Assembly: GCF_028618575.1 (NCBI RefSeq)
Contig: NZ_JAQITA010000010.1
Coordinates: forward strand, 26,682 to 87,582
Source of the DNA: Bartonella sp. ML70XJBT.G
Lineage (GTDB): Bacteria > Pseudomonadota > Alphaproteobacteria > Rhizobiales > Rhizobiaceae
Direction of reading: 5' to 3'
DNA: 60,901 bases
Shown here: piece after piece, positions 40,935 to 54,537 of the stretch
Layout: each line of letters opens with the position of its first letter
Position numbering within the stretch: position 1 is the first letter of the stretch
Notes under the pieces: generated by a model
The model's database searches: none
Seen by the model: only the letters and a program-made list of their open reading frames with translations
Told to the model about the DNA's origin: nothing
Position numbers and translations under genes: made by a program

Positions 40935-41314
40935 TTATGAAAATAAGCTGCTGTTTTCTTCATGAGAAATTAATTGCAAGATTGCTCTTTGTTTTTTGCG
41001 GGTAAGCATTCTGAAATTTTTTAAAAGCAGAGATTCCGCTTTGCTCGATATTCTGTCATCATGGGGATTTGTAGTTTTTTCTTTTGTTGCGATATCAGCA
41101 TAAAAGAAAGAAACAGGTACTTCCAGTATATCGGCAATTTCTTGCAAGCGTCCTGCACCGACACGATTTATGCTTTTTTCATATTTTTGAATTTGTTGAA
41201 AAGTAACACCTAAGCGACTGCCTAATTTTTGTTGAGAAAGCCCTATGATGCTTCTTCTGAGACGAATTTTTTGCCTACGGAGTTATCGTTAAAATGTGGA
41301 TTTTTTGCGCGCAC
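40935..41314 (-). pseudogene. XRE-type HTH regulator (Trp family of Bartonella), frame-disrupted
   Basis: Read from a GTG at 41314 (after AGGGGA), the frame gives VRAKNPHFNDNSVGKK and then meets a stop soon after. Shifting one base back at the A6 run (plus-strand T6 at 41267-41272) gives IRLRRSIIGLSQQKLGSRLG, then VTFQQIQKYEKSINRVGAGR, then LQEIADILEVPVSFFYAD, a complete XRE helix-turn-helix, and runs on to LISHEENSSLFS at 40935. The junction VGKK-IRLRR is exactly what such regulators have, so only one base is off. A one-base loss in an A7 run, -1 ribosomal slippage on A6, or transcript slippage would each explain it. It lies directly behind the structured RNA at 41329-41528, an arrangement like the known Brt/Trp pairs. 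Confidence 0.75.
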
Positions 41315-41328
41315 TTTCTTCCCCTTTG

Positions 41329-41528
41329 AATGCGAGCGCCCTCGCATTGGTATTCCGGGGGCTGGAAGTGCTGACATCGAATCAGCCTCTTGCTTTTAGT
41401 GCTTGAGAGCACTTGTACATAACAAGAGCCCCCGGAAATTCCGGGATATCCGCAAAGCAGATCTATTCTGTGTTCGATGTTAGGGCTTCCAGGCCCTATT
41501 GATCGCTGCGTATACGACCAATATCACA
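41329..41528 (-). ncRNA. Brt-like regulatory RNA of Bartonella
   Basis: A region richer in G+C than its surroundings, about 200 nt long, with strong pairing potential. TTCCGGGGGCT (41353-41363) can pair with AGCCCCCGGAA (41427-41437), enclosing the hairpin AGTGCT-TGAG-AGCACT (41398-41413). CCCGGAAATTCCGGG (41431-41445) is itself palindromic. At the 3' end AATGCGAG/CTCGCATT (41329-41348) forms a stem just upstream of the ribosome-binding site of the HTH gene. Known knowledge: Bartonella has a genus-specific family of about 190-nt RNAs (Brt), each placed before an HTH regulator gene. Size, position and structure match; sequence identity with a named member was not tested. Confidence 0.7.
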
Positions 41529-41534
41529 GGCTCA

Positions 41535-41563
41535 TTCATAAGATAATTCTCTCAAATCGTCAA
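41535..41563 (-). promoter_or_regulatory. promoter of the Brt-like RNA
   Basis: On the minus strand TTGACG (41563-41558) and TATGAA (41540-41535) are separated by exactly 17 bp. This is among the best sigma-70 matches in the window and fits a highly expressed RNA. It predicts a 5' end near 41528. Confidence 0.65.
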
Positions 41564-43029: not shown

Positions 43030-43236
43030 TTTCTTTCATTCTTTTGCGGGAGAGTGCAGACTGCAAGCTTTTGCGTATGCCGCCGAAGGGGAAAATAGCC
43101 CATAATCTCTCAGGCTTTAAAGGACCGTAAAAGAAGAAAGACAGATCTGGAAAGTCGGAAAGGTCCGCGCCGAAGGTGTAAGCGAAAGATCTTTTCGCGA
43201 GTCTCTCAGGTTTATGACAGAGGGGTGCAGAGACAG
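43030..43236 (+). promoter_or_regulatory. tandem glycine riboswitch before gcvT
   Basis: Two consecutive aptamers with the family landmarks. The first (about 43030-43140) contains GCGGGAGAG, CCGCCGAAGGGG, TCTCAGG and ACCG, closed by a stem pairing CTTTCATTCTTTT with AAAAGAAGAAAG. The second (about 43141-43236) has GGAAAGTC, CGCGCCGAAGGTG, GTCTCTCAGG and GACAGAGGGG. Glycine riboswitches of this class turn on glycine-cleavage genes when glycine is high. The gcvT start lies about 40 bp after the second aptamer. No terminator hairpin was identified, so control at translation is also possible. Confidence 0.93.
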
Positions 43237-54094: not shown

Positions 54095-54340
54095 TTATAT
54101 CGAGCCTTGCCCAAAGTCGCACGTGCCTGTGGGTGTCCGCTGGTTCTCAAATGGTGAGATTAACCGGTACGGTACCTGGAACTAACCGCTCCAGTCATTC
54201 TTACGGCCAACCGAAAGAGTGAGGACATCTTGAAGCAACGACGGTGCGGGCCTTTCTGGTGTCTTCCAGCTGTCCAAATGCTGGGATAACTATAGAGGCA
54301 CACCTCATTGCCTTCAGTGCGGAAGTGGTTTTCTCAACTC
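54095..54340 (+). promoter_or_regulatory. speF-type structured leader RNA
   Basis: About 250 bases upstream of ornithine decarboxylase are much richer in G+C than the flanks and full of pairing segments. Examples are GGTTCTC with GAGATTAACC, ACCGGTACGGTACC, and CTGGAACTAACCGCTCCAG. Known knowledge: alphaproteobacteria carry a conserved speF motif before their ornithine decarboxylase gene, thought to be a regulatory leader. Position, length and structure support that call; I could not run a covariance search. A hairpin CGCAG-TTT-CTGCG (54370-54382) with a T-rich run and a second stem CTCTATGCT/AGCATAGAG (54483-54505) before the ribosome-binding site could mediate the switch. Confidence 0.65.
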
Positions 54341-54537
54341 CAATCAAAAAGGCAGATAAAATAGGATAACGCAGTTTCTGCGCTGTTCTTTCATTGTATG
54401 CAATATTGGTTTCTTTCTGATTATGAAAGTAATCAGAGTGCTGATATTAGCTGTATGTGTTTTGTCTTTTAGCTATTGGCGGCTCTATGCTGTCCAAGCA
54501 TAGAGGAGGGGTTTTATTCCCTTAGGAGAATTGATAG

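Follow-up and report, generated by a model that had tools for sequence, protein, structure and literature searches.

Brt leader RNAs of Bartonella as probable C4-type antisense RNAs fused to their own regulator gene

In Bartonella henselae, an RNA named Brt followed by an XRE-type regulator gene, trp, constitutes the published Brt/Trp arrangement, whose hallmarks are high Brt expression and a poorly transcribed trp; the accessible text of that report calls the RNA specific to the genus on the basis of BLAST and holds no covariation model (PMC5387305). We analysed a stretch of 60,901 nucleotides from Bartonella sp. ML70XJBT.G (contig NZ_JAQITA010000010.1; hereafter the window), in which positions 40,935 to 41,563 carry a counterpart of the brt1/trp1 pair. 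Comparison of this copy with its relatives points to Brt being an antisense RNA of the C4 type, built into the leader of the regulator gene that it precedes, a reading to which we assign a probability of about 0.7.

The c4 RNA is known from phages P1 and P7 (PMC12197685), and C4 and c4-a1b1 have been described as motifs (PMC2864571). Processing by RNase P at the 5' end of the core has been published for the P1/P7 C4, and C4-like Group 1 small RNAs (sRNAs) have been reported in Acinetobacter baumannii (PMC5320573). Another RNA family, sRNA-Xcc1 (RF02221), lies upstream of symE in Xanthomonas integrons (PMC12444791) and is given as separate from C4 (PMC12189769). Rfam shows sRNA-Xcc1 without a clan, and among open-access papers we found none joining sRNA-Xcc1 to C4, nor any joining Bartonella or Brt1 to C4, antirepressors or sRNA-Xcc1. 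In the P1 record, the order of elements is promoter, a1, b1, c4, a2, b2, icd and ant, with a1 and b1 marked as putative, and the Rfam structures of C4 (RF01695) and c4-a1b1 (RF03163) place both a1 and b' in hairpin loops, b' coming ahead of a'. Phage P1 silences its antirepressor gene with this antisense RNA. The P1 icd-ant genes are controlled by start occlusion, which is followed by loss of the untranslated mRNA.

All features of the Bartonella locus lie on the minus strand, and their coordinates count from the start of the window. A -35 element TTGACG (41558-41563) and a -10 element TATGAA (41535-41540), read from the sequence and separated by a 17-nt spacer, precede a Brt1-type leader RNA of predicted length 200 nt (41329-41528), the 5' end being predicted at 41528. 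The leader region (41530-41330) folds at -80.5 kcal/mol (z -5.6), and none of 200 shuffled sequences folds as well. Its last 20 nt (41348-41329) read AATGCGAG/CTCGCATT, an 8-bp stem with the loop GGCG, downstream of which come GGGG (41324-41321) and the GTG start of trp1 at 41314, 14 nt past the stem end at 41329. Brt/Trp pairs are defined by an RNA of 194-203 nt homologous to Brt1-9 and a gap of 10-18 nt, and the window copy falls within both ranges. The promoter, 200-nt RNA, 8-bp stem, XRE gene and break at an A6 run listed in the initial annotation were all found again on re-reading.

Within the leader, comparison of copies gives a consistent order of elements behind the promoter. Hairpin H1 (TTGGTCG/CGATCAA, 41499-41521; 95.9% of cells paired) is followed by hairpin P2 (41483-41496; 92.6% paired), whose loop holds segment a1 (41486-41492), and then by segment b1 (41474-41479) and hairpin H2 (41448-41462). 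A C4-like core (41353-41437) comes next, closed by helix B (41437-41429 with 41361-41353; 96.6% of cells paired and present in the RNAalifold consensus). The core contains an arm, H4 (41387-41428), with a conserved internal loop; a CTGA/TCAG hairpin identified from pairing in the alignment (41371-41385) with segment b' (41380-41375) in its loop; and segment a' (41362-41368). The nearly invariant terminal stem H5 (41329-41348) ends the leader.

The strongest evidence for this architecture comes from two long-range helices. Model searches returned 220 hits in 200 distinct stretches, from which 175 near-full distinct copies were aligned; covariation was tested within classes, with brt1-type and other copies kept apart, because column covariation alone mixes the split between the two. 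The main permutation test used 100 non-redundant copies lacking the TTGACG promoter. In helix K1, the partner of the P2 loop (a1) is a strand lying some 120 nt further downstream (a'), with a cognate energy of -6.3 versus -2.9 kcal/mol for permuted partners (z -17.1); in helix K2, b1 pairs with the CTGA/TCAG hairpin loop (b') about 100 nt away, at -7.9 versus -3.1 kcal/mol (z -19.2). None of 2000 permutations did as well in either case. Both a1/a' and b1/b' are hypervariable, and the pairs differ among copies yet match inside each copy. In the same 100 copies, the local helices also score (H2 z -9.8, H4 z -9.2, helix B z -6.0, H1 z -4.9, H3 z -4.4), and among 17 TTGACG copies K2 (z -6.5) and H4 (z -3.2) score while the remaining helices do not.

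An alignment of 95 copies made by a tool agrees with these results. The 59 named pairs are 91.5% paired there, 28 of them change on both sides, and all five measures applied to them beat 500 shuffles; the covariation score is 0.213, against 0.142 when shuffled (0/500 as high) and at most 0.096 when the pairs are slid. Covariation says little for H1 and H5, since changes in H1 are one-sided and H5 hardly varies. The RNAalifold consensus comprises helix B and H4 together with portions of H2 and H5. K1 and K2 cross helix B, which implies either alternation or a pseudoknot, and energies do not decide which fold dominates because the K fold is lower on average yet the helix-B fold is lower in 36 of 104 cases.

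These features reproduce the C4 plan, in that a1 and b1 lie upstream of a closed core carrying b' and then the complementary a'. Like the C4 of P1/P7, Brt has the same order of elements, a1 and b' in hairpin loops, a' directly before the closing strand and a gene downstream. It differs in having no supported a2-b2, an extra stem H5, an XRE regulator behind it and no Rfam match. Brt thus appears to have a C4-type architecture and would work like C4; given the absent Rfam match and the unsupported a2-b2, we do not count it as an established member of C4. The A. baumannii Group 1 sRNAs resemble Brt in being multicopy and phage-derived with a variable a', and are unlike it in being hit by the Rfam C4 motif and processed from longer transcripts (PMC5320573).

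Relatives outside the genus were sought with a model, R1, constructed from 95 Brts with K1 and K2 excluded. Besides the source genome, R1 matched three of the 297 genomes of the order (L172-L174, 30-35 bits). A motif pattern run over 385 genomes of the class added four candidates, with one genome matched by the reversed-pattern control; R1 confirmed two of them (L177 and L178, 29-31 bits), and the other two were excluded, L175 being coding and L176 doubtful. As a control, R1 gave nothing at E<=10 in 216 kb of other DNA (66 non-Bartonella loci plus P1). With segments chosen by eye, the assignment of each b' to the b1 of its own RNA ranks first among 120 in the five relatives, and that of each a' to its own a1 ranks second. 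L173 and L174, from other families of the order, precede a TraM gene (PF09228) with a LuxR-type gene nearby. TraM is a quorum-sensing antiactivator. One relative precedes a gene for an HTH protein, and the short open reading frame (ORF) of L172 has no Pfam match. On this sequence evidence, Brt seems not to be limited to Bartonella, contrary to the published statement based on BLAST.

The relatives also lead towards sRNA-Xcc1. RF02221 covers the core of L174, L177 and L178 below its cut-off (34.4, 27.4 and 26.1 bits; E 0.015, 0.7 and 1.4); when only a short stretch is searched, L174 gives E 0.006. In the opposite direction, R1 matches four of 39 RF02221 loci over its whole length (E 4.5e-4 to 4.1e-3), the scores being 20.5 bits for L216, 20.3 for L204 and L213 and 17.1 for L208; a few further loci are matched in part. 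sRNA-Xcc1 may be linked to Brt via intermediates and these four loci. The cores of both have a closing stem, an arm, a hairpin carrying b', and a'; unlike Brt, sRNA-Xcc1 has its own downstream a2/b2 pairing. Across 30 loci (the 20 best-scoring of the phylum search plus the 10 of the source genome), a' and b' of RF02221 pair both upstream (z -7.4 and -6.5) and downstream (z -4.2 and -5.3). Six ORFs behind RF02221 RNAs, picked by eye, encode AntA, Rha, two BRO-N proteins (one just under the cut-off), KilA-N and SymE.

Of 299 genomes of the phylum, 51 contain RF02221, the source genome included; there are 10 matches in the source genome and 11 in the comparison genome G023, a single contig of 1,931,047 bases. 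The source assembly is flagged as 9.29% contaminated; the family nonetheless recurs in nine of 12 selected other Bartonella genomes (E 0.01; eight over the cut-off). Loci L204-L212 of the source genome and the 372-411 kb region of G023 hold many of these RNAs, and phage genes of the AntA/Rha type follow some of them. By eye, Bartonella RF02221 copies carry a promoter-like TTGACT..TATAAT between b1 and the core, and a weak c4-2 (RF02944) match below the cut-off (L191, 2890-2958) shares its locus with an RF02221 RNA. A broader proposal, which we regard as an even bet, is that Brt and sRNA-Xcc1 belong with the TraM leaders and phage C4 in a single superfamily of antisense leaders, each addressed to itself; Bartonella would have domesticated a phage immunity module, multiplied its copies and diversified their a/b addresses, with each copy silencing only its own regulator in the manner of phage immunity groups.

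Pairing strength was compared with the state of trp. This comparison excludes two copies truncated at the end of a sequence, and the rank tests leave shared ancestry in. Among brt1-type copies, K1+K2 is weaker in the eight with a broken trp than in the 20 with an intact one (p 1.1e-4; K1 alone 5.4e-4), and among the others it is weaker in 47 copies with a broken or lacking trp than in 98 intact ones (p 4.1e-6). Wide windows, which depend less on alignment columns, agree (p 0.0017; 0.044 for broken copies and 5.6e-6 where a full trp is lacking), and total folding energy gives the same picture (p 3.0e-4 and 1.2e-7). The weaker pairing where trp is broken or absent suggests that Brt acts in cis.

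A mainly trans-acting role, with Brt serving as an sRNA on other genes such as badA, seems distinctly improbable. Antisense knockdown raises badA (PMC5387305) and an unpublished pull-down is cited in a review (PMC8070961), both of which would suit such a role; it sits poorly with the weaker K1+K2 of copies without an intact trp and with the exact a..b target of the window brt1, which in three of three genomes occurs, by exact match, only in brt1 itself.

In the cis-acting C4-type design that we favour, a' and b' would switch between pairing with a1 and b1 (K fold) and the helix-B fold. In the latter, the trp start would be masked, a role that may fall to the 5' portion of a'; the untranslated trp mRNA would then be lost through polarity or decay, leaving behind a stable leader that ends at H5. 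We infer that trp output would be lowered by this combination of start occlusion and mRNA loss. Deleting the 3' stem-loop of brt1 raises trp1 transcription according to a review (PMC8070961), as would suit repression in cis by the leader. Among 118 intact copies, 81 offer the 5' portion of a' a pairing site within the 45 nt that follow H5, and in 78 the site overlaps an ATG, GTG or TTG; shuffled downstream sequence gives 35.9 copies and permuted partners 73.6.

A number of observations weigh against the C4-type reading. The start-region complement recurs in broken copies (19 of 30) and in copies preceding another Brt (11 of 23), and being so common there it is no proof of function. C4 action centres on an a2-b2 target at the ribosome-binding site downstream, and for Brt such a target is unsupported in 64 intact copies (z -0.3 and -0.8 for b', -1.7 and -2.5 for a'). 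Among brt1-type copies, K1 varies too little for a test (z -0.3) and K2 alone is indifferent to trp state (p 0.19). The permutation tests, like the rank tests, leave shared ancestry in. At E<=10, the Brt copy of the window has no match to any Rfam family, RF02221 and RF01695 included; RF01695 finds nothing in three Bartonella genomes, and the hit of R1 on P1 c4 is not meaningful, scoring 4 bits and falling on the wrong strand. The RF02221 matches to the relatives are weak, and L172 and L173 have none, while among the four R1 matches L204 and L213 score alike in sister genomes and hence are not independent. For the relatives, the segments were chosen by eye and the a'-a1 pairing of L174 is weak; an automatic cut gave mixed results, with 3, 7, 55, 59 and 188 of 200 shuffles as good for a' upstream and 0, 4, 11, 30 and 83 for b' upstream. 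Finally, a heme effect and hints of trans targets have been published (PMC8070961, a review).

The heme effect belongs with another possibility, that Brt is a ligand-sensing riboswitch or attenuator, with heme as the proposed ligand, controlling trp transcription through the 3' stem. The effect of the 3' deletion and heme-dependent gfp expression behind brt1, both given in the review (PMC8070961), are consistent with it, as are the strongly conserved H4 internal loop and the competition of helix B and H3 for one strand. We nevertheless consider this unlikely as an alternative: the longest T-run in the 15 nt behind H5 is 4 nt, in two of 175 copies; the strongest covariation falls in hypervariable long-range pairs and not in an aptamer; and relatives precede TraM while RF02221 family members precede antirepressors. 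Ligand sensing could also coexist with the C4-type design.

Four further candidates were rejected. An intrinsic terminator at H5 lacks a long T-run behind the stem in the 175 copies. Pairing of a C-tract with the trp Shine-Dalgarno sequence is no better for cognate than for permuted partners (z +0.8). A mini-ORF starting at ATGTCC in H4 keeps its ATG in 161 of 175 copies and keeps neither length nor frame (mostly 7 or 12 aa), so that structure explains ATGTCC better. The H5 palindrome was considered as a regulon operator, and all 11 exact sites in the source genome lie within Brt copies; only two sites fall outside Brt there, each with one mismatch.

As to which Brt/Trp copy the window holds, the source genome has 13 Brt matches, and such matches are present in 46 of 71 genomes of the genus, the source genome included; these copy counts are minimum values, as a limited number of first-look candidates was scored per genome. 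G023 has nine Brt copies within 277 kb, and Houston-1 is likewise reported with nine copies in such a region, within which virB is placed, trp1 being BH12870 and virB9 BH13330 (PMC5387305). Of two CagX genes in G023, at 1518 and 1815 kb, the first falls inside the Brt copy region, and exactly one Brt copy precedes this virB9-like gene; because BH12870 precedes BH13330, that copy is brt1/trp1 if the tags follow coordinates. It is also the best match of the window copy in G023 (88% identical). Flanking sequence of the window matches on at least one side at 28 of 29 best-match loci, with a 54-base stretch only at the G023 locus. Judged by its sequence, then, the window copy is brt1/trp1 of the published family, as the initial annotation's term 'Brt-like' had anticipated; it is like B. 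henselae Brt1/Trp1 in sequence, length and the 14-nt gap to the XRE gene, and differs in that its trp1 is broken.

The promoter described earlier as tuned is indeed closer to a good -35 than that of most other Brt copies. Of 28 brt1-type copies, 24 have TTGACG as their -35, as do five of the remaining 147, most of which carry TTGCCA (70), TTGTAA (39) or TTGCTA (15), and the seven further G023 copies in the set have one of these three. Brt1 has been reported at a level more than 10-fold higher than other Brts (PMC5387305), and the -35 difference is a plausible explanation for its higher abundance relative to Brt2-9.

The trp1 gene of the window is split. Its first part runs from the GTG start to an out-of-frame stop (41243-41314, reading ...VGKK...), and the remainder, 115 codons from stop to stop (40935-41282, reading ...KIRLRR...), encodes an XRE helix-turn-helix (HTH_3, E 6.6e-9); the two frames overlap at the A6 run (41267-41272). 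The initial annotation had left the choice between a switched-off copy and expression by slippage. At 30 best-match loci (the window plus the best match from each of 29 genomes), the regulator is intact in 20, broken in eight including the window, and not found in two, the two pieces having been searched separately. The nearest relative, which shares 97% identity across the part of Brt used as query, has an intact trp in one open frame, and some genomes hold a second brt1-type copy (in L026, the first is broken and the second intact). By eye, four of the eight broken copies (L001, L016, L022 and L038) show a length change in the same A-rich stretch, a pattern that would fit a mutational hot spot with recurrent loss.

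The break therefore looks like an ordinary loss. Ribosomal or polymerase slippage at the A run would be allowed by the overlap of both frames at A6, and is very improbable given the single open frame in 20 of the 30 loci and in the nearest relative; a programmed frameshift would be expected to leave the break conserved among orthologues, which these 20 loci contradict. The proposed tie between the regulator and its upstream RNA draws support from the weaker pairing where the regulator is lost, not from frameshifting. Since brt1 of the window still pairs well (K1 -10.6, K2 -9.3), the loss is probably recent. The same strong pairing, the homopolymer site and the draft state of the assembly (84 contigs, with the contamination flag given above) would also suit a sequencing or assembly error in a strain whose living trp1 is intact; as three other genomes, each the sole representative of its species, also differ in length here, we think this improbable, though far less so than slippage.

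Other arrangements of Brt were also seen. Two brt1-type loci, L030 and L040, retain most of Brt with H5 and trp replaced by other sequence; lacking these, they stand outside the 175 copies and were judged separately. Tandem Brt arrays without a full trp between the copies (L043, L060, L028 and others) account for 23 of the 147 non-brt1-type copies. Brt-like sequences are found on five Bartonella plasmid records, including NC_012847.1, and a search of a phage collection gave no Brt match. Elsewhere in the window are a glycine riboswitch (43037-43137) and an ar45 sRNA followed by a speF leader (54109-54415).

The Brt/Trp pair itself is known, and what is new is the leader architecture, namely the a1/a' and b1/b' covariation in the C4 order. 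brt1 precedes a regulator reported to act on the main adhesin of B. henselae, and the mode of action of Brt has so far been an open guess between riboswitch and sRNA. A C4-type design supplies named segments (a1, b1, a', b' and H5) on which that mode of action may depend. If true, it would give a reason why many Brt copies coexist without cross-talk, and would join Brt and sRNA-Xcc1, which are filed apart, to a phage immunity system.
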